Shown in pieces: positions 8,294 through 49,733 of a DNA stretch of 53,970 nucleotides. The stretch is taken from positions 1-53,970 of IMG/VR virus record IMGVR_UViG_3300023171_000016, one strand, 5' to 3'. Source of the stretch: a virus. The position numbers and the translations under genes are program-made. Position 1 is the stretch's first letter; every line of letters begins with the position of its first letter. The notes under the pieces were generated by a model. That model had not been told where the DNA came from. It worked only from the letters and a program-made list of their open reading frames with translations, and searched no databases.

Positions 8294-8506
8294 ATGACAC
8301 AGGAACAAGCAATTGAAGCCGTTGAAGATGCAGACATAAGTACATCCGGCTGGCTCGATGTAATAATTGAGCAGATAAGCGACAAGTACGCACAGGGTTA
8401 TTTGACCTGTTTTCTCGAAAACTTATCCGGCAGATTATCGGCAACTTACGAAGAATATAGAGAAGAAGTTTTAGAAGCACTTGAATATGATATTTGGGGT
8501 AAGTAA
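8294..8506 (+). CDS. Hypothetical acidic protein, 70 aa, last gene of the rightward arm
   Basis: Strongly acidic, helical protein (MTQEQAIEAVEDADISTSG). Its charge and size would suit a DNA mimic or inhibitor, but that is speculation. It ends just before the convergent terminator. Confidence 0.65.
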   Translation: MTQEQAIEAVEDADISTSGWLDVIIEQISDKYAQGYLTCFLENLSGRLSATYEEYREEVLEALEYDIWGK

Positions 8507-8509
8507 CAG

Positions 8510-8530
8510 ACGGGGCCGAAATGGCCCCGT
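8510..8530. terminator. Bidirectional terminator between converging arms
   Basis: A perfect eight-base stem (ACGGGGCC/GGCCCCGT) with a five-base loop fills the 28 bases between the stop of the last rightward gene and the stop of the endolysin gene. It is positioned to end transcription from both sides. Confidence 0.8.
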
Positions 8531-8534
8531 TCCT

Positions 8535-9041
8535 TTACCCTATAAACCCCACTAATTTCGGGTCGTCTAACCTTCGTGTACGTCTGCATACCATGCCGCC
8601 GGTACGGCTCCCGTTCGCATCGGTATTGCCTTCTATTGTCACCATTACGCCACCATCTACAGATACTACTATGCCGGTATGGCCTAATCCTTTGCCATAA
8701 TCCATAATGAATATGTAGCCCGGTAAAATAGTGGCGTTTTTAGGCTTACGCATGTGTTGTGGAGCATTACGCCATCCGTTCAATACGCCGCCTGTTTTGT
8801 GCAAAGGATTGGCTACATGGAGGATTTCGGCAGCTTCATTGAAGCATCGGTAAACAAAGGCCATACACCAAGCATTATTTTTGCCAAGTCCCACCGTTTT
8901 CAGGCATGCTTCGACAAACGGCCCGGCATTGCTACCCGCTGGAATTTCCTTTTTGCCGATGTATGTTGTAGCTATCTGTAGTGCCGTTTCTGCCAGCGAT
9001 AACGGCAGGGTTACGGATTGATTTTGTGTTTCTGTGTTCAT
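8535..9041 (-). CDS. CHAP-domain endolysin
   Basis: The 168-residue protein has the CHAP catalytic set in order: C59 in NNAWCMAFVYRC, H121 in GLGHTGIVV, and the acidic/amide group in TIEGNT (residues 136-140). CHAP enzymes cut peptide crosslinks or the amide bond of peptidoglycan. There is no signal peptide, so release would need a holin; candidates are the membrane genes at 12499-13406. It is the last gene of the leftward arm, as fits late expression. A cell-wall-binding domain is absent. Confidence 0.85.
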   Translation of the reverse strand: MNTETQNQSVTLPLSLAETALQIATTYIGKKEIPAGSNAGPFVEACLKTVGLGKNNAWCMAFVYRCFNEAAEILHVANPLHKTGGVLNGWRNAPQHMRKPKNATILPGYIFIMDYGKGLGHTGIVVSVDGGVMVTIEGNTDANGSRTGGMVCRRTRRLDDPKLVGFIG

Positions 9042-9053
9042 GGTGTATATTTG
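9023..9053 (+). promoter_or_regulatory. Rightward promoter divergent from the endolysin gene
   Basis: TTTG (9023-9026), 19 bases, TATATTTG (9046-9053): a perfect Bacteroidota promoter match on the plus strand, with its -33 box inside the endolysin coding region. No rightward gene follows; the transcript would reach a hairpin at 9081-9111. Confidence 0.55.
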
Positions 9054-9056
9054 TGG

Positions 9057-9115
9057 CTACTTTCCGTGTTCTTATTACCTACACCCCGTAATCCCCATAC
9101 TTGCGGGGTGTATTA
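9057..9115 (+). ncRNA. Candidate short RNA ending in a hairpin
   Basis: From the promoter at 9023-9053 a transcript of about 55 bases would end at a hairpin with an eight-base stem, ACACCCCG (9081-9088) and CGGGGTGT (9104-9111), followed by ATTATTTAAT. No open frame of note lies within it. It could be a small regulatory RNA, or the hairpin may simply insulate the endolysin region. Confidence 0.35.
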
Positions 9116-9132
9116 TTTAATATAATATCCAC

Positions 9133-9168
9133 GCAAAAGTTGTACATAATTTTAGGGCAAAAGTTGTA
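9133..9168. repeat. Two 12-base direct repeats in the endolysin upstream region
   Basis: GCAAAAGTTGTA occurs at 9133-9144 and again at 9157-9168, a period of 24 bases. Two hairpins follow at 9180-9196 and 9201-9217. The region 9116-9242 holds no gene. The repeats could be operator sites; the related core AACTTTGCG recurs near 9783, 10261, 11262 and 11570. Confidence 0.45.
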
Positions 9169-9242
9169 GATTAAATCAGGCGGGATTTCTACCCGCAGCC
9201 CCGTCTTTGCCGGACGGTATATTTAGCTTTTCTACGACTGAT

Positions 9243-9605
9243 TTATGCCAACACCTGTTTATTATCCTCAAACACCTTTTCAAACAGTTCGCCGTACTTT
9301 TCGCTTTCAAGACGGTGTTCGTCAATATGGGCTATCATGCGTGTTGCTATTTCCTTTGCCACACGCTTACGCTCCCGTGATGTGGCTGCACCTTCAAGAC
9401 GTTCTTTCAGGGCATTCAGGGCCACAATCAGGGCCAGCCTCAATGCTTCGTCTTTATCGCCCGGTATGACCTGTGTAACGATTATTGCGCCCTTACTTTC
9501 TGCCAGCCACAGCAGCTTAGTCGTCACCTGCAATACCTTTTCTGATATGCGGCGGATTGATGCGGGGACAGCCCCGAAAGCGAGCATTAGTTTACGAAGG
9601 AACAT
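9243..9605 (-). CDS. Hypothetical protein, 120 aa
   Basis: A hydrophobic, amphipathic N-terminal half (MFLRKLMLAFGAVPASIRRI) is followed by long charged helices (SRERKRVAKEIATRMI). It lies immediately upstream of the endolysin, overlapping a one-span membrane gene, so a role in lysis is possible. No domain recognised. Confidence 0.68.
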   Translation of the reverse strand: MFLRKLMLAFGAVPASIRRISEKVLQVTTKLLWLAESKGAIIVTQVIPGDKDEALRLALIVALNALKERLEGAATSRERKRVAKEIATRMIAHIDEHRLESEKYGELFEKVFEDNKQVLA

Positions 9606-12018: not shown

Positions 12019-12022
12019 AAAG

Positions 12023-12106
12023 TCGAAGTAGAGGGATTCGAACCCCCGAAGCCATAAGGCGGCTGATTTACAGTCCACCCGTTTTATCCATCTTACCTAT
12101 ACTCCG
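12023..12106 (-). tRNA. tRNA-Tyr (GTA)
   Basis: The acceptor stem CGGAGTA/TACTTCG pairs with one G-U. The anticodon loop CTGTAAA has anticodon GTA. A long variable arm (GCC-TTAT-GGC) is present, as expected for bacterial tRNA-Tyr, and the T-loop is TTCGAAT. The anticodon stem has one apparent mismatch. CCA is not encoded. Last of four tandem tRNAs. Confidence 0.9.
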
Positions 12107-12112
12107 ATTTTG

Positions 12113-12185
12113 TGGGAACGGTTGGGGTCGAACCAACATCTAAGGTTTTTCAGACCTTCGCTAAGACCGCATCAGCTACGCTCCC
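12113..12185 (-). tRNA. tRNA-Phe (GAA)
   Basis: Acceptor GGGAGCG/CGTTCCC, anticodon loop CTGAAAA with anticodon GAA, T-arm with TTCGACC. Length 73 bases, CCA not encoded. Six bases separate it from tRNA-Tyr. Confidence 0.92.
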
Positions 12186-12190
12186 ATAAT

Positions 12191-12263
12191 GTACCCCCAC
12201 ATGGAATTGAACCATGATCATCCGGTTAAAAGCCGGTAGCTCTGCCGTTGAGCTATAAGGGTA
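12191..12263 (-). tRNA. tRNA-Lys (TTT)
   Basis: Acceptor TACCCTT/GGGGGTA with two G-U pairs, anticodon loop CTTTTAA with anticodon TTT in a perfect CCGG/CCGG-type stem, T-arm ATGG-TTCAATT-CCAT. Length 73 bases. CCA not encoded. Confidence 0.92.
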
Positions 12264-12268
12264 TTTTG

Positions 12269-12341
12269 CACGCACCCAGAGAATCGAACTCTGCCAAATG
12301 GTTTTGGAGACCTTTTCGCCATCCTTGGGACATTGGCACGT
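12269..12341 (-). tRNA. tRNA-Trp (CCA)
   Basis: Acceptor ACGTGCC/GGTGCGT, D-stem TGTC/GGCG, anticodon loop CTCCAAA with anticodon CCA, T-arm CAGAG/CTCTG with loop TTCGATT. The anticodon stem has one A-A mismatch. First of the four tandem tRNAs; it follows a terminator at 12355-12380, so it depends on read-through or processing. Confidence 0.85.
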
Positions 12342-35344: not shown

Positions 35345-35818
35345 ATGGCAGACAAATTGAACAAGAAAATCAGCATGCCGGTTGCCCCGCAGCCTTCGAC
35401 ACCAAAACCAACACCCGAACAACAGAAAGAAGCACGATTTCAGGCGTTCAGCCAGCAGTGGCTAAGTGAAAATATCTATGTGCCGCCGTATGTGCCGGAA
35501 CAATTCGCACACTGGTTCTGGCTTACGTTCAGCAATTTCAGCGCATCCGGCCTGAGAATAGCGCATAACCTGTATAACGACATACTCCGCGCCGAACAGT
35601 ACACCTACAACCAGTACAACATAGTATTACAGTTGTTCTCTATGGTCAACGGCGCACAGCTACAGTGCAGCCGTGGTGAATACCTCGAATTTCAGGACGC
35701 TTGCCGTCTGATGGAATCGGACTTCACCGAGGCGCAGCTAAAGGCAGTAGAAATAATGAGAAAGGAATTTGACGATATAGAATCGGTTATGGCAACCAAT
35801 GAAGTAGGGCAGGCGTAG
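35345..35818 (+). CDS. Isolated rightward gene, 157 aa, unknown function
   Basis: The only rightward gene outside the early arm. The protein has a low-complexity Pro/Lys start, then an aromatic, helical body (FAHWFWLTFSNFSASGLRIA) without membrane spans. It is divergent from the tape measure, and its 3' end overlaps the converging glycosyltransferase gene by 32 bases. Codon usage looks like its neighbours. Opposite orientation suggests later insertion, or a regulator or antisense role. Confidence 0.72.
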   Translation: MADKLNKKISMPVAPQPSTPKPTPEQQKEARFQAFSQQWLSENIYVPPYVPEQFAHWFWLTFSNFSASGLRIAHNLYNDILRAEQYTYNQYNIVLQLFSMVNGAQLQCSRGEYLEFQDACRLMESDFTEAQLKAVEIMRKEFDDIESVMATNEVGQA

Positions 35819-43336: not shown

Positions 43337-44746
43337 TTAAAATGGTGCGTCATCTTCTGGTGGTAGTGGGTTGCGTAAGTGCTGAAATCCAGCGCGCGGG
43401 TTATCAGGTGGGCGTGTGGTTGGTGTTGGCGTTTCCCATAGCATAAGGTCGCCGGAAAACTTCAACTCTACATCGCCACATTGCCCGTCCCTGTTTTTCA
43501 CAATACACACTATGTGCTTTGTTTCTTCCTCTGATATTTGGTTGGGCCATATCATCATGACTATGTTTGCATCTTGCTCTACTGCGCCGGATTCTCTAAG
43601 GTTTGACAAAGTAGGGCGTTTAGTAGTTGTTTTTTCAACCTCCCTGTTAAGCTGAGCCAATGCTACTATAGAAATTTCCAGCTCCGAGGCTAACAGTTTA
43701 AGTGTGCGGGTAATGGTTGCAATTTCCTGTTCCCTGTTGCCGTTCTTGTCCCTGTTTGCCCGTATCAATTGCAGGTAGTCAATGTAGACAATCTTTATTT
43801 TGTTCTTTTTTACTTTCCGGCGTATGGCTGCAACTATCCTATCAAGGCTTTGCGTTTTGTCGTCTATCTCAATTGGCAGGCTATAGAAAAACGAAGCGTA
43901 TTCTATAAGTTTCTGACTTTGGTAGTCTGTAAGATCAGCCTTTTTTACTGCCGAAAAGAAAACCCCCGTTTTCATTGCCGCAAACCTTTTCACCAATTCC
44001 TTTTTACCGGCCTCTAATGAGAATATCAGAGTAGGCACCATGCCTTTAAGTGCAAAGTTAAGTGCAAGGGCCGTTTTACCTACAGATGGGCGTGCTGCCA
44101 GTACTATGAGGTTTCCCGGCTGCCAGCCGTCCGTCATGCTGTTTATTTCTTCATAACCGGTATCTATGCCGGTAAGTCCCTGCGGCCTGTCTTTCATTTC
44201 TTCTATGTCCATCAGCATTTCGGTATAAGTTTCGCCAATAGCCACAAATTCGCTTATAGAGTTGCCCTCTGTTATTGCCTGTATCTGCTTTTCAGTATCG
44301 GCTATAAGGTCAAAAACGTCTTGATTGTCATCGTATGCGTCTGCTATTGCTTTGCCGCAAATCCTGATAATCTCCCTGCTGTTGAATTTTTCTATTATTA
44401 TCAGCGAGTGCGTCTGTACGTGAGCGGATGAATTTACAGACTGAGTGAGCAATGTTAGGGCGTACCGGCCCCCGACTATTTCAAGTTCTGCTGTTTTGTT
44501 GAGTTGTTCAGCCACGGTAAGCAAATCAATTGGCCGGTGCTGGTTGAATAACTGCACCATTGCTGCATATATCTTTTGGTGCGCGTCTACATAGAACATT
44601 TCAGGCTTTAGCAGCTCATGTACTGTTTCAAATGCTTCACGCTCTAACAGGCACGCACCTATTACCGCTTGCTCCAATTCTGTAGCTTGTGGTGGCACTT
44701 TGCCATATATGAGCGTGTTTAGTTGGGTTTTATTGAGGGGTGCCAT
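43337..44746 (-). CDS. dnaB: Replicative DNA helicase (DnaB family)
   Basis: The 469-residue protein has the DnaB N-terminal domain (PPQATELEQAVIGACLLERE) and the RecA-like helicase domain: Walker A LAARPSVGKTALALNF, Walker B KIVYIDYLQLI and the arginine-finger region (ALAQLNREVEKTT, LRESGAVEQDANIV). It unwinds DNA as a hexamer at the fork. It overlaps the Lin1244/Lin1753-like gene, which may load it. No primase domain or separate primase is visible. Confidence 0.93.
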   Translation of the reverse strand: MAPLNKTQLNTLIYGKVPPQATELEQAVIGACLLEREAFETVHELLKPEMFYVDAHQKIYAAMVQLFNQHRPIDLLTVAEQLNKTAELEIVGGRYALTLLTQSVNSSAHVQTHSLIIIEKFNSREIIRICGKAIADAYDDNQDVFDLIADTEKQIQAITEGNSISEFVAIGETYTEMLMDIEEMKDRPQGLTGIDTGYEEINSMTDGWQPGNLIVLAARPSVGKTALALNFALKGMVPTLIFSLEAGKKELVKRFAAMKTGVFFSAVKKADLTDYQSQKLIEYASFFYSLPIEIDDKTQSLDRIVAAIRRKVKKNKIKIVYIDYLQLIRANRDKNGNREQEIATITRTLKLLASELEISIVALAQLNREVEKTTTKRPTLSNLRESGAVEQDANIVMMIWPNQISEEETKHIVCIVKNRDGQCGDVELKFSGDLMLWETPTPTTRPPDNPRAGFQHLRNPLPPEDDAPF

Positions 44747-45419
44747 ATTGCTTAAGCCAGTTTTTAAGTGTTATAAATGCAGATTTGTATTTTTTGGTAA
44801 GTGAGTTATTGTTGTGCATCTTTTCGCACATGTCAGTCATTTGCCGTTTCCTATAACCCATATCCCGTATCTCAAAGTATTGTTCAGTTGTGAACGGCTC
44901 ACACATAGAGAATAGCGAAGGGGTGTTTTTCTCTATCCAATTTTGAAACAAATCGAATTCTTTTTTTTGTTCCTCAGAAAATACTATTACGTTAGTAATA
45001 GTATTATTTCCTTTCTTTTCTTTTCCTTTCTTTTCTTTTATAGCATTGCCATCGCTATGCGTTCGCATTGCGTTCGCATCTTCCCACCTCGTTTTGGCTG
45101 ATTTTGAAGCTTTTAGAGATTTTTCATTTCTTAATTCTAAGCGTTTTCTTACACTATTGCTCCAAAATTCATTTTCGTCTTTTTTGAACAAATCGAAGTC
45201 ATTTATTACGCACATTATTTTACTAATATCTACCCTTAGCGTAAAGCAATAGGTGGGTATTTCGGCCAACTTCAACGCGCCGCCCTGAGTATACATAAGC
45301 TCTACTAAATCCCAAAAAATACCTTTCCCCTCATGTCCCATAGACATTTGCAACTTCACCATTTTCGGGTCTTGCCCTGCATTATAATCATGAGAAAACC
45401 AGTAAGATTTTTCGGACAT
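44730..45419 (-). CDS. Lin1244/Lin1753-type replication protein, 229 aa
   Basis: The N-terminus fits the domain found in phage replication initiators: WFSHDYNAGQDPKMVKLQM and GHEGKGIFWDLVELMY. A basic low-complexity linker (KEKKGKEKKG) and a helical C-terminus follow. Such proteins usually lie directly upstream of DnaB and are thought to bind the origin and load it. It overlaps dnaB by 17 bases. Confidence 0.78.
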   Translation of the reverse strand: MSEKSYWFSHDYNAGQDPKMVKLQMSMGHEGKGIFWDLVELMYTQGGALKLAEIPTYCFTLRVDISKIMCVINDFDLFKKDENEFWSNSVRKRLELRNEKSLKASKSAKTRWEDANAMRTHSDGNAIKEKKGKEKKGNNTITNVIVFSEEQKKEFDLFQNWIEKNTPSLFSMCEPFTTEQYFEIRDMGYRKRQMTDMCEKMHNNNSLTKKYKSAFITLKNWLKQYGTPQ

Positions 45420-46136
45420 TTATATTCTTATTAAGGGGTAATTTGAAGCGGGTGTAAGCGGCCCAAAATCGTCTTTATAAACTATATAGGCACCTGTTAC
45501 GGGCCTCCTGTCGCCTTTGGACTGCATGATGTGCCGGATAAGGTTTATGTATAGTGTCAACTGATCATCGTCTAAGGCAAATAGTTTAGCGTCTATTATT
45601 CTAACCTCTGCTTTATTGCTGCAAATGAAGTCTGGAAAACAAATACTACGTGCGCTGCCGGATAGTTTATACTCAATGCACTGTTGAGGTATCACAATAT
45701 CCCAAATTCCACGAAGATATACAAGGGCTTCGGCCTCCTGTTTTAATGAATTTATCTTTGCCTTTTCATACCCATTATAGAGTGTTTCGGTAGGGGTAAA
45801 GCCATATTCTAACCTTAAATCCTTTCTTCCTGTGCCTTTAATGAACTCCCATAACGGCTTATACTTTATCTGCTTAATAAGCCCACACGCCTTTAGCACG
45901 TAGGCTAAAACATCACGTGGCACCTGTACCCGTGGCTTTATTACCGGTTCCTTTCCGCTGAATGACATATGTTTGCCTTTTATGGTCTTGTAGTTCTCGC
46001 AGCCCCAAAAACCATAACTGGAAACATAATTAAGTTTACCGCCACAAAACGCACACTGCTTTTCCCTGAAACACCTTATTTTTTCTTCAACCTCTTTAAA
46101 GTTCTGTATTTCTTCAATCTTCAATTCGTGCGCCAA
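45420..46136 (-). CDS. Putative nuclease with zinc-finger start, 238 aa
   Basis: N-terminal CAFCGGKL and a later cysteine (WGCENY) suggest a small zinc site. The C-terminal half has a restriction-fold pattern: CFPDFICSNKAEVRIIDAKLF (D, then DAK). It could be a resolvase- or primase-associated nuclease. It follows the small gene behind the structured leader and precedes the replication genes. Confidence 0.6.
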   Translation of the reverse strand: MAHELKIEEIQNFKEVEEKIRCFREKQCAFCGGKLNYVSSYGFWGCENYKTIKGKHMSFSGKEPVIKPRVQVPRDVLAYVLKACGLIKQIKYKPLWEFIKGTGRKDLRLEYGFTPTETLYNGYEKAKINSLKQEAEALVYLRGIWDIVIPQQCIEYKLSGSARSICFPDFICSNKAEVRIIDAKLFALDDDQLTLYINLIRHIMQSKGDRRPVTGAYIVYKDDFGPLTPASNYPLIRI

Positions 46137-46142
46137 CTCATC

Positions 46143-46253
46143 TTAAGCGTTCAATATAGCATCACCATGCGCTATTATCGTGAAATGGCTCTGCTCGTCA
46201 AATGGTGTTTTAAATTCCGGAGTTGGGGAAAGTTTGGCAAAATCTATTTTCAT
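46143..46253 (-). CDS. Small protein behind the structured leader, 36 aa
   Basis: A 36-codon frame starts 12 bases after the long hairpin (MKIDFAKLSPTPEFKTPFD) and ends 6 bases before the nuclease-like gene. As the first frame after the leader RNA it may be the regulated reading frame. Function unknown. Confidence 0.5.
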   Translation of the reverse strand: MKIDFAKLSPTPEFKTPFDEQSHFTIIAHGDAILNA

Positions 46254-46255
46254 AA

Positions 46256-46380
46256 ATTAATAAAGCCCACATGGGATTGACGGGTAGAAGCGGCTCAAGC
46301 TCTGCTGTGTTGCCTCCGTCAGCCCCATGTGGGCGTAAAATGTTGTTGATTATTCAGGCTTCTACCTCTGAATTACTGGA
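46256..46380 (-). ncRNA. Structured leader RNA with complementary hairpin loops
   Basis: Hairpin 1 has a six-base stem (ATTCAG/CTGAAT) and a 10-base loop (46367-46358). Hairpin 2 has a 19-base stem (46334-46316 with 46283-46265, one G-U and one mismatch) and a 32-base loop. Bases 46366-46358 in loop 1 are exactly complementary to 46291-46283 at the 3' side of loop 2, so a kissing interaction of eight to nine pairs is possible. A promoter lies directly upstream. Confidence 0.65.
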
Positions 46381-46383
46381 CTG

Positions 46384-46414
46384 CGAATATACTAATAAAT
46401 CGCTGAAAATCAAA
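46384..46414 (-). promoter_or_regulatory. Promoter of the replication operon leader
   Basis: TTTG (46414-46411), 19 bases, TATATTCG (46391-46384), one mismatch to consensus. The -33 box overlaps the stop codon of the helicase gene. Confidence 0.68.
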
Positions 46415-47882
46415 CTAATTTATTCGTGTAAAATACTTTTTCTCCGACCTTTGCGCGGTGGTGTTCGGCCCATCCCAACTTATAGCCCTTAGCCATGCCG
46501 AATATAGTCAAAAATTCAGGGTCGGATATGCTCCGAGCCTTAGCAACCCTGATAGCAAAGTTCAATTTGTCGTTTTCCTTTGACCATTTAGCAAGCTCTA
46601 TCGCAGTTAGTTCACTTAGTTTCTTGCCGTATTTCGGTTTTTCCAACATCACAGTCCTAACCCCATCCAGTTGCTCAACCGCCTGCTTAACAAATACATG
46701 ACCACAGTTCGGACACTCCATAGCAGTAGGCCGTAGCATATAGTTACATTTCGGGCATATCTTCACCGGAGCAACCCCTTCGCGCTTCTTTGGTATCTTG
46801 TTCCACATTTCGGCCCACGGGTGATTATAGTCCCACCTGCCGTGCCGCTTGCCGTTGCCGCCAAAGTCAACAACACGAAAACCGGTTTTACCGGTAGCTG
46901 TTGACATGCGCGAACCACGGCCAATAGATTGCAGATAACGCGGTAGTGATGTAGTAGCCATGTACAGAAAAATTAGGTCTACCGGTGGAAAGTCATAACC
47001 CTTGTTCATGCTGGCTACTGATATGCAGATAGTAACCGGCGAACCCAAATCGTGGAACTGTCCAAGGTCGTAGGATTGTTTCGCCTCACTGCGAATGTCG
47101 TAACGGCTGTGCTGCACACAGTTTGCGCGACCCTGTTCGCTAAGGTATGCCGCCAATGATTCAGCGGATTTTATCGAGGCGCAAAAAATCATGCAGCGTT
47201 TATAGGGTGATTCATCTAAGTACTGCAATGCAAACCTGTGCGCGTCCGGTGTGTCAAAAATACGTTCCTGTGATTCTTCCGTAAAGTCACCATTGCTGCC
47301 TATTTTCAGCGTGCTAATGCCGGATGGTATTACCTGCGCGTGGGTGTATGGCATTAGTCGGCCATTGTCTACCAACCATTCGGGCTGTGAGCCTACAGTA
47401 ATGCCGTTGTAAAGTAGTGGCAGGTGCTTGGCCCACTTCATTGCAGGCGTGGCCGTAAATCCAATAAGCAGTGATTGCGGTAACTGTAGCAATAGCTTGG
47501 TCGCTGTACCTATGTGAGCTTCGTCATTGATAGTTAGTAGACCTTCGCCCATCATTGAGAACTGGCTTATTAGTTTTGGCCTCCGTGCCAGTGTTTGCGC
47601 CATTGCTATGTACAACCGTCCCGGCTGAATGTATGTAAGCTTTGCGGTGCTGTTGATATTCACGCCCCCCGGTATTTCCGCGTCCAGTTGCCTGTATATT
47701 TTGTCGGATTCAGTAACCACCAACACTGTGCGCTTTTGCAGTGCATTCAGGGCTATCGTTATAAACACCTTCGACTTACCGAAACCAGTGGCGGCACACG
47801 CTATCTCGCGCTTACGTGCCGCCACTCCCTCGGCGATGTTTTTGTAAAATTCCTTTTGGTCTGGGTAAAGTTGAATACTCAT
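46410..47882 (-). CDS. SF2 DEAD/DEAH-type helicase with zinc ribbon, 490 aa
   Basis: All core helicase motifs are visible: Walker A AATGFGKSKV (about 31-40), DEAH in LTINDEAHIG, GFTATPA, and motif VI QSIGRGSRM. A C-terminal zinc ribbon is present (CPKCNYML, CPNCGHV). It unwinds or translocates on DNA or branched DNA. It is in the same operon as RecT and the RecE-like nuclease and so is probably the recombination or repair helicase. Confidence 0.88.
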   Translation of the reverse strand: MSIQLYPDQKEFYKNIAEGVAARKREIACAATGFGKSKVFITIALNALQKRTVLVVTESDKIYRQLDAEIPGGVNINSTAKLTYIQPGRLYIAMAQTLARRPKLISQFSMMGEGLLTINDEAHIGTATKLLLQLPQSLLIGFTATPAMKWAKHLPLLYNGITVGSQPEWLVDNGRLMPYTHAQVIPSGISTLKIGSNGDFTEESQERIFDTPDAHRFALQYLDESPYKRCMIFCASIKSAESLAAYLSEQGRANCVQHSRYDIRSEAKQSYDLGQFHDLGSPVTICISVASMNKGYDFPPVDLIFLYMATTSLPRYLQSIGRGSRMSTATGKTGFRVVDFGGNGKRHGRWDYNHPWAEMWNKIPKKREGVAPVKICPKCNYMLRPTAMECPNCGHVFVKQAVEQLDGVRTVMLEKPKYGKKLSELTAIELAKWSKENDKLNFAIRVAKARSISDPEFLTIFGMAKGYKLGWAEHHRAKVGEKVFYTNKLV

Positions 47883-48526
47883 GATATAGTTTCGTTTTCG
47901 CGTTCTGGTTCAGGCTCCCATGCAGCCGAAAATTCTTTATCAGAGAATAATTCTACAAGTCCGCTTATCTGCGATAGCCTTAATACTTCGTCAGCGTCCA
48001 TGCCTAATTCTTTGCTTATTTTTTCCGGTGACCAGTTTCGGCGTTTAAGGTCAACCACAATTTCAGACATGCTATCAACCTTATGTTTCCCGCGCGCCCT
48101 GTTGTGGCGTATTGTAGACGCTATTCTGTCGCCTTTACCGGTCTGGCTTTCCCGTATGGTCACCACCGGAAGATAGCCATGTATTCTGGCAGTTATATCG
48201 GGGCAATCCTTGCCAACTATATTACGGTGAAACCCGTCTATAACCTCCCTATTACCGTCACCGTCCGGCATTGTAACAATCGGCTGCGTGTAACCGTCAT
48301 TGGATATACTTACCCTTAGCAACTCCTTTTCTGGTGGGGCAACGCTGTTGGGGTTGTAGTCATTGGCGTACACGCTGTTGTTGATGACCCATAGCACGCA
48401 GTCTACCGGCTCCGTTTTGAACGGGCTTACTTCGTGAATGAGTAGGCGAAGTTCATTTATTGCATTTACCTTTTCAGCTAATGGCAGTTCAGCCAGCGAC
48501 GCTATGTAGTCTTTAATTTCCGTCAT
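47879..48526 (-). CDS. ibrB: IbrB-like ParB-fold protein, 215 aa
   Basis: A ParB/sulfiredoxin-like core is clear: SISNDGYTQPIVTM and EVIDGFHRNIVG, followed by a helix-turn-helix-like segment (WSPEKISKELGMDADEVL). The gene directly follows an IbrA-like PAPS-reductase gene, overlapping it by 14 bases, the arrangement of ibrA-ibrB in E. coli prophages. The symbol reflects this similarity. A role in DNA modification is possible but unproven. Confidence 0.78.
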   Translation of the reverse strand: MTEIKDYIASLAELPLAEKVNAINELRLLIHEVSPFKTEPVDCVLWVINNSVYANDYNPNSVAPPEKELLRVSISNDGYTQPIVTMPDGDGNREVIDGFHRNIVGKDCPDITARIHGYLPVVTIRESQTGKGDRIASTIRHNRARGKHKVDSMSEIVVDLKRRNWSPEKISKELGMDADEVLRLSQISGLVELFSDKEFSAAWEPEPERENETIS

Positions 48527-49733
48527 AAAAATTGTCTTTTAGTCTGCGTGATTTTTTTAAGCCTAAGTACCGTTGATAAGCCGCTGTTTTCTGTTGTGTG
48601 AACCCTAAACCCTTGCACCAAAAATCGTTCCTTAATAGGGACTTGCATATTCTGCGCCACGATGGGGCAAGTTTTTTGCTTTCCAGAATATAGGGAGCTT
48701 CGTCCGGTATTCCGTCAGGGTAGCCCCGTTCGCGCCACCACTCAATGAACGTGTATATTTTATTCAGGTAGTGCTGTTTTGTTACGTCCGGTATGCTGTT
48801 AAGGAATAATCCGGCGAAACTATTCCATGTATGGTTAGGCGGCAGTTTTACGCGGTTGTAGCCGTTTATAGAACCACTTTCGTTAATGTACAGCGCGCCG
48901 CTGTTTGCGCCATTTACACGCGCTACGACCTTCGCCCATGTTTCAGGTTCTATGAGGTGAAACAGCCACAGGCCGCGCCGCTGGTCATCGCCGTAGGGCT
49001 GGCATATCCGCTGCTGGTGTATAGATAGCCCAGCCTTGTGCATCAGTTCGTATAGCTGGTTATATCTGTCTGTTGGGTGTTTGCTGTGGTATATCCAAAT
49101 GTCCTCCGTGGTCATATCGTATATGGGGTAGACGTTGAATACATTAGGGGTTACCAGAGTTGTGTAACACCGGCCCTGTATCGTAACTTTGTCCTTGCTG
49201 GCTATAGTCCGGTAGCGGTTCAGGCTTTCATCTGTCCTTATGCCTACCAGACACGCGCACGATTGACCTTGTGAATACCATTCGCCAAACTCAGGTACAA
49301 ACTCTTCAAACTCCATACCATCACGAAAGAACGGGAAAAATGACGGGTCACTTATTGCCTTTTCAGGTATTGGCCTTATCCAATTTTCTTTTTGTTCAGC
49401 ATCCCAACACTTCCAAAAGGGCTCATACACGCTTACTGCATTTCTCAGGTGAATAGGCAGGCACACCCAATACAACTCTATGTTATCCGCATACTGTTCT
49501 ATGCAGGCGTGAAGGTGGTCTATTGTGAATTTATATTGCCCTTCGAGGTCTACAATTAGCACGCCAACTTTTGCGCTGCGCTTCACTGCTTCTTTCATCA
49601 CTATATGCAGCATTACCGTACTATCCTTACCCCCGCTGAACGAAATATACACCCGCTTAAATGTGTCGAATACCCATTGTGTGCGCTGTACAGCCGCTTC
49701 ATAAACATTGACATCTAATCTGTACTTTGGCAT
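48513..49733 (-). CDS. ibrA: IbrA-like PAPS-reductase family protein, 406 aa
   Basis: The PP-loop of the adenylyl-transfer fold is SFSGGKDSTV (residues 31-40). The middle holds a catalytic-looking cysteine segment (CACLVGIRTDESLNR) and the C-terminal part matches the DUF3440 type of IbrA (YPIYDMTTEDIWIYH, YPDGIPDEAPYILESKKLAPSW). The family resembles sulfonucleotide reductases and DndC. With its IbrB partner it may modify nucleic acid or a host factor; the substrate is unknown. Confidence 0.82.
   Translation of the reverse strand: MPKYRLDVNVYEAAVQRTQWVFDTFKRVYISFSGGKDSTVMLHIVMKEAVKRSAKVGVLIVDLEGQYKFTIDHLHACIEQYADNIELYWVCLPIHLRNAVSVYEPFWKCWDAEQKENWIRPIPEKAISDPSFFPFFRDGMEFEEFVPEFGEWYSQGQSCACLVGIRTDESLNRYRTIASKDKVTIQGRCYTTLVTPNVFNVYPIYDMTTEDIWIYHSKHPTDRYNQLYELMHKAGLSIHQQRICQPYGDDQRRGLWLFHLIEPETWAKVVARVNGANSGALYINESGSINGYNRVKLPPNHTWNSFAGLFLNSIPDVTKQHYLNKIYTFIEWWRERGYPDGIPDEAPYILESKKLAPSWRRICKSLLRNDFWCKGLGFTQQKTAAYQRYLGLKKSRRLKDNFYDGN

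Follow-up and report, generated by a model that had tools for sequence, protein, structure and literature searches.

A two-hairpin kissing leader element ahead of replication and homing-endonuclease operons in some Bacteroidota phages

The leader pseudoknot of the IncB/IncI-alpha repA/repZ type is formed by long-range loop pairing in front of a replication initiator, and in the Pistol ribozyme the loop of hairpin 1 base-pairs with one strand of the internal loop in a second helix. Two phage systems are also close to the locus described here. HK022 putRNA (~70 nt) contains an RNA triplex, binds RNA polymerase directly and acts as a cis antiterminator (PMC9378689). The leaders of T4-type homing endonucleases (I-TevI, mobE and segB) place a structure before the gene that probably limits its expression (PMC3014915). 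In the 53,970-nt stretch of viral DNA that we analyzed (IMG/VR record IMGVR_UViG_3300023171_000016; hereafter the window), two hairpins whose loops can kiss lie between a Bacteroidota-type promoter and a replication operon. The promoter, fold, kissing pairing, placement and recurrence of this element were computed; its structure and placement are well supported, and it probably acts as an on/off control element of a kind not described before. A literature search that covered journals other than subscription journals returned no paper describing a kissing leader, and the host-phage papers make no mention of one.

The element occupies positions 46391-46253 of the window, from promoter box to ATG, and all of its parts lie on the minus strand. 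The promoter (46384..46414) is composed of TTTG (46414-46411), a 19-nt spacer and the box TATATTCG (46391-46384), and the upstream helicase gene (46410-47882, minus) terminates within this TTTG-19-TATATTCG sequence. In F. psychrophilum, the promoter box is located at -12 to -5 and start sites lie 5 nt past the box (PMC9723704); applying this rule to TATATTCG places the predicted +1 of the leader RNA near 46379. The 5' hairpin, P1 (46352..46373), has a 6-bp stem (ATTCAG, 46373-46368, with CTGAAT, 46357-46352) and a 10-nt loop, AGGTAGAAGC (46358..46367). A 17-nt unpaired linker (46335..46351) connects it to the second hairpin, H2 (46265..46334), which was defined by the minimum-energy fold and whose equivalent stems covary in relatives. 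H2 contains P2 (46334-46324/46275-46265; 11 bp, or 12 counting a G-U), P3 (46321-46317/46282-46278) and a small inner stem (46314-46312/46294-46292). The preliminary description had assigned a 19-base stem to hairpin 2; the stem is long, but instead of 19 uninterrupted pairs the outer fold comprises 12 bp (46334-46323 with 46276-46265), a 1x1 mismatch and then 6 bp. Inside H2, on the 3' side and flanked by the small inner hairpin and by P3, the kissing strand GCTTCTACC (46283..46291) pairs with GGTAGAAGC (46366-46358) of the P1 loop, and C46283, the last kiss base, can also pair with G46316, which creates a competition. Directly after H2, the T-rich tail TTTATTAATTT (46254..46264) resembles a weak terminator U-tract, and its T-run (5 T in 8) is among the two weakest in the family. 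A 23-codon frame, MGLTEATQQSLSRFYPSIPCGLY, also runs through H2 (46327-46256, minus) and is not conserved in other members.

P1 and H2 both emerge from free-energy folding without prior hint, and the fold (-42.6 kcal/mol, z=-3.4) beats 200 of 200 dinucleotide shuffles. The coordinates given in the preliminary description for the promoter, P1, its loop and the complementary strands were all correct when checked against the sequence. The nine-base match that it reported between 46366-46358 and 46291-46283 is a perfect complement, and essentially none of 20,000 shuffles of the loop and the H2 interior gives 9 bp (p=5e-5). In a both-strand scan with a descriptor consisting of a hairpin, a second hairpin and a loop match, the window element was the top site with a score of 68, compared with a maximum of 66 in 8 whole-window shuffles; the descriptor score by itself is not decisive for this element, and the relatives decide. 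No Rfam 15 family was detected at the window element at gathering or permissive thresholds, nor was there any Rfam match at seven related loci, and the best sub-threshold matches at these elements were microRNA models with 15-18 bits.

The genes behind the leader form a replication operon on the minus strand. Its first frame is a 36-codon ORF (46143..46253), whose ATG lies 11 nt after H2 and which has no Pfam or PHROG match; it is not a conserved partner of the leader. The 238-aa protein that follows (45420..46136), previously called a nuclease, likewise has no Pfam or PHROG match and, as a search anchor, retrieved no close viral relative. The initiator and DnaB genes described earlier were confirmed by the matches of the replication initiation protein (44730..45419) to Lin1244_N and phrog_2562 and of the DnaB-type replicative helicase (43337..44746) to DnaB_C (E=3e-75). 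Elsewhere in the window, region 47879-49733 encodes a DUF3440/PAPS-reductase protein and then a 215-aa protein without a Pfam match that reads as ParB-type, resembling an IbrA/IbrB-like pair, and Flavobacterium phages FCL-2 and 6H also have a similar annotated pair. On the minus strand, a cluster at 12022-12341 comprises four tRNA genes (Tyr, Phe, Lys and Trp).

The preliminary description concerned a single element, and the relatives reveal a multi-copy family that is also located before homing-endonuclease genes. At least 13 further loci in uncultured and cultured phages have the same architecture with unrelated sequences, with up to three copies per genome; a blastn search with the window element gave no match in phages. 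The helicases closest to that of the window in IMG/VR are 59% identical (contigs L002 and L008). Directly after the helicase, L002 carries the same plan in different letters, with the promoter TAACTTTG and a first hairpin, CACTAG-CGGCAA-CTAGTG, whose CGGCAA is complemented by the loop of the next hairpin, TTGCCG; a T-run follows this second hairpin. In L008, the stem letters are changed to CCAG/CTGG with every pairing retained, and the next start codon in the L002 group lies ~80 nt further on. In helicase relatives at ~45% identity, a comparable gap after the helicase is missing, and prokaryote genomes yielded no relatives of the helicase. Dense GGTAACAAACTTTG-type iteron-like repeats, possibly a replication origin, follow the primase gene in phages of the L002 group (L054 17486-17795 and the corresponding stretch of L057).

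A descriptor scan of whole related contigs identified leaders in L061/L063, L064, L105, L107 and L101. The L061/L063 leader is located directly before the helicase, and the L064 leader precedes an HNH/endonuclease VII-like gene that itself lies between two terminase genes. The L105 loop is nearly that of the window (AGGTAGAATC with GATTCTACC), and the kiss GATTCTACC/GGTAGAATC differs by one compensated pair. In the window, L105 and L061, an additional small hairpin precedes the kissing strand on its 5' side and sets these three apart as a subtype. The strongest real descriptor sites score 61-78, and 614 kb of shuffled genomes produced 32 matches at a loose threshold, only one of them above 60. 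Because lower-scoring descriptor sites prove nothing alone, the loop match was dropped as a criterion in later steps. A consensus pattern matched 14 sites in genome contigs, of which those inspected by eye looked like chance, and of its matches in viral contigs none was real outside the known groups. L133 2024-2160 is an uncertain candidate leader, in which the second hairpin has 19 bp and the loop match only 5 bp. L061 additionally encodes, at 8462-9292, a DNA methyltransferase of the D12 class that contains a long internal repeat of LQQLEQ type.

Among cultured phages, leaders are present in FCV-1.01, FCL-2, FCOV-S1, snusmum, mumin, lillamy and morran. A blastn search with an FCV-1.01 leader identified FCOV-S1, snusmum and morran; with morran as the query, lillamy and mumin were then found. 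Flavobacterium columnare phage FCV-1.01 has two leaders, one before the replication-initiation operon and the other before a NUMOD4/HNH/AP2 homing endonuclease, and snusmum has three, before a helicase operon, a NUMOD4 endonuclease gene and an SNF2-type helicase (gp032). The annotated gp032 start (9166) falls within the leader (L118 9166-9202). A start at ATG 9202 fits better, and the protein read from there resembles the SNF2 helicase-methylases that follow leaders in L101 and L063. FCL-2 carries, in the same syntenic place as FCV-1.01, a leader whose loop is entirely different (ATCATCCAC, matched by GTGGATG). Leader and gene are swapped as one cassette between these two phages, whose homology ends at 35786, no more than 16 nt from the start of the promoter box, and homology between mumin and lillamy ends right after the leader, with different replication genes beyond. 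These exchange boundaries argue for a cis role at operon heads. The leader is not general to Bacteroidota phages: no strong descriptor member was detected in the scanned sequence of Cellulophaga phages phi46:1, phi17:1 and phiSM, in that of Flavobacterium phages lotta8-1, 6H and laban6-1, or in the part of the crAss-like phages covered, which comprised one half of crAss001 plus a single HNH locus. In phiSM (L114 46893-47023, minus), a 9-mer near the 5' end, CGTAGATAC, matches GTATCTACG in a strong second hairpin; hairpin 1 is non-canonical, and this may be a divergent relative.

The members share a constant layout. In all 19, a TAnnTT(T/C)G promoter is located directly ahead of the leader, with the box 2-10 nt before P1. 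The P1 loop is 6-14 nt long and the kiss 6-9 bp (19 sequences), the linker measures 12-30 nt (mostly 16-24), and the leader as a whole is about 90-130 nt in length. The two longest linkers, those of L107 and FCL-2, contain sequence able to form a small extra hairpin. Each loop matches its own H2, and matches to the H2 of other members mostly reach 2-5 bp, longer ones occurring mainly among close relatives. The downstream genes encode replication initiators, helicases, primases and free-standing homing endonucleases, and the ATG is located 10-25 nt after H2 in 15 of the 19 members. T-runs after H2 (at least 6 T in 8) are found in 13 of 15 distinct members and at 27% of 289 control gene starts. 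Since these T-rich tails are far commoner than before ordinary gene starts, H2 looks like an intrinsic terminator right before a gene. The T-run is also weak in the FCV-1.01 replication leader, and given its weakness there and in the window, termination is not universal from sequence alone.

The preliminary description had set beforehand an absence of covariation as evidence against the element; in the relatives, the stems and the loop-loop pairing both covary strongly. Six Flavobacterium phage orthologues were aligned without regard to structure (alignment A4); five were found by sequence similarity and never by loop match, and FCV-1.01 was first found by its loop match. In A4, 98.3% of 178 pair cells are paired, and sliding the partner by 1-3 columns reduces this value to 33-43%. 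Thirteen pairs are changed on both sides, which is reached in 0 of 500 shuffles, although with six related sequences these shuffle counts are not probabilities. Double compensatory changes affect 5 of 8 kissing pairs and 7 of 11 P2 pairs of H2, and G-U pairs are tolerated in the helices. Between snusmum (GTGGAACG/CGTTCCAC) and lillamy (GTGAGACG/CGTCTCAC), two adjacent kissing pairs are compensated in elements that are otherwise very similar. By reading of the sequences, the kissing-strand stem P3 also changes in step, as GGCU/AGCC, GGCA/UGCC and AGCA/UGCU in the Flavobacterium orthologues and as GCU/AGC, GCA/UGC and GUG/CAC in the L002/L008/L064 group. A MAFFT alignment of all members (A6) misaligned H2 and was excluded from the counts. 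Such covariation is strong evidence for an intramolecular kissing complex.

A covariance model that contained only the nested stems and left out the kiss (R1) recovered, at E about 0.02-0.03, the two leaders of endonuclease genes and, in addition, two previously unseen leaders, L063:12333 (E 0.024) and L118:9083 (E 0.17), in a list that also includes false matches, among them reverse complements, at similar E-values. All four leaders have the loop match, that of L063:12333 with one G-U; recovery by R1 alone is weak evidence. The model, which is specific to one subgroup and hence has little power, found no leader in 395 Bacteroidia genomes.

What would such a leader do? With moderate confidence, we propose that it belongs to a previously undescribed family of 5' leader RNAs that act in cis in Bacteroidota phages and attenuate replication and homing-endonuclease operons. 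We infer the mechanism as follows. Transcription would begin at P1 or just before, and pairing of the P1 loop with the H2 loop strand would turn the entire 5' UTR into one closed kissing structure, in which H2, with its intrinsic-terminator-like build, finishes just ahead of the first codon. Most early transcripts may then stop at H2, or may be translated poorly with H2 inside the likely ribosome footprint; structured initiation regions reduce translation in Flavobacterium (PMC6847099). The operon, which encodes replication proteins here and homing endonucleases elsewhere, would be expressed only upon read-through or when something opens the fold, and we guess that the kissing contact sets the speed or firmness of H2 formation. 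Leader control of the endonuclease genes is plausible given that T4 homing endonucleases use inhibitory leader structures (PMC3014915). The earlier suggestion of an attenuator or phage regulatory RNA before replication genes fits these observations, whereas its riboswitch-like option is not supported: loops and stems vary freely with compensation, and neither conserved aptamer-like nor highly conserved ligand-binding nucleotides are present, the only internal-loop similarities being short ones, such as GAU/UGAA, inside one subgroup. Attenuation by a leader peptide was rejected on inspection because several members (FCV-1.01, morran and L105) have no ATG inside H2, and inspection by eye revealed no alternative anti-terminator pairing shared across the family.

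Several other readings were weighed against attenuation in cis. The leader could stay on host RNA polymerase and confer resistance to downstream pauses and terminators, as HK022 putRNA does. Two stem-loops right after an early-type promoter, the scattering of several copies over the operon heads of a genome, with the shape kept but not the sequence, and the same position and size class as putL (PMC9378689) fit this idea. Nevertheless, we regard it as rather improbable, since an antiterminator would not need the terminator-like T-run of H2 present in most members, and putRNA is V-shaped with an RNA triplex, loop-loop kissing being unmentioned in PMC9378689. About equally improbable is a free-standing, trans-acting small RNA gene of ~110 nt with its own promoter and terminator hairpin that precedes operons by chance. 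A self-sufficient small RNA gene would present similarly: promoter, compact fold and T-run make up a complete one in most members, and the start codon of the L002 group is ~80 nt away. This reading is opposed by the ATG directly after H2 in 15 of 19 members, by loops that pair with each other, leaving no conserved accessible sequence, and differ between copies of one genome, and by a leader that travels with its gene.

That the element mainly stabilizes the 5' end, its terminal hairpin and kissing fold shielding phage mRNAs from decay, is unlikely; P1 is indeed a few bases from the predicted +1 in all members, but a plain 5' hairpin would suffice, and the kissing and the T-run would be left unexplained. 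We give very little weight to replication control of the plasmid type, by antisense RNA or by pseudoknot-activated translation of the initiator (IncB/IncI-alpha repA/repZ type), despite the loop-loop match before replication genes. There is no conserved antisense promoter (an opposite-strand TAnnTTTG with TTG upstream occurs in 2 of 12 leaders, in no common place and not in the window), and many copies precede homing endonucleases or DNA methylase-helicases rather than initiators. Least probable of all is a DNA-level signal, such as a replication origin or a recombination or packaging site. Inverted repeats adjoin replication genes and the leader lies at module exchange boundaries, yet its polarity is strict (promoter 5', T-run and ATG 3'), G-U pairs are tolerated, and a genome can hold up to three copies, some before endonuclease genes.

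Beyond attenuation of single operons, we tentatively consider a shape-defined RNA regulon, although it is doubtful. Leaders with the same kissing complex and private loops would be read by their shape by one common factor, which could be a phage protein or, on the host side, RNA polymerase or an RNA-binding protein, and replication and homing-endonuclease operons would be released together. If true, this would be the first such antitermination/attenuation system in Bacteroidota phages, for which very little is known of gene timing. The leader is a concrete, testable RNA element with strong covariation support, and cultured Flavobacterium phages carry it at several copies per genome. Stand-alone homing-endonuclease genes with the replication-operon leader suggest that mobile genes take over the control element of the phage itself.

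Like the IncB/IncI-alpha leader, the kissing leader uses long-range loop pairing, but the phage leaders have no antisense promoter and are not restricted to initiators. The loop pairing is also Pistol-like, but the leader has no Rfam match, a different topology and conserved core, and a long P2 followed by a T-run. T4-type leaders share with the family an RNA structure ahead of a phage homing endonuclease; there, one local hairpin hides the ribosome site or AUG, whereas here a two-hairpin kissing fold that also precedes replication operons leaves the AUG outside the helix, 10-25 nt beyond H2 in 15 of 19 members. Set beside HK022 putRNA by its published description, the leader likewise has two stem-loops immediately after an early phage promoter, several copies per genome and a cis arrangement, but it is longer (about 90-130 nt versus ~70 nt) and has a loop-loop kiss and a terminator-like 3' end of its own, and its sequence is far less constrained. 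With intrinsic-terminator attenuators it shares the order of promoter, structured leader, terminator-like hairpin with T-run, and gene; in contrast to them, inspection by eye showed no common leader peptide or antiterminator pairing in the family, and the kiss links its terminator hairpin to the 5' end.
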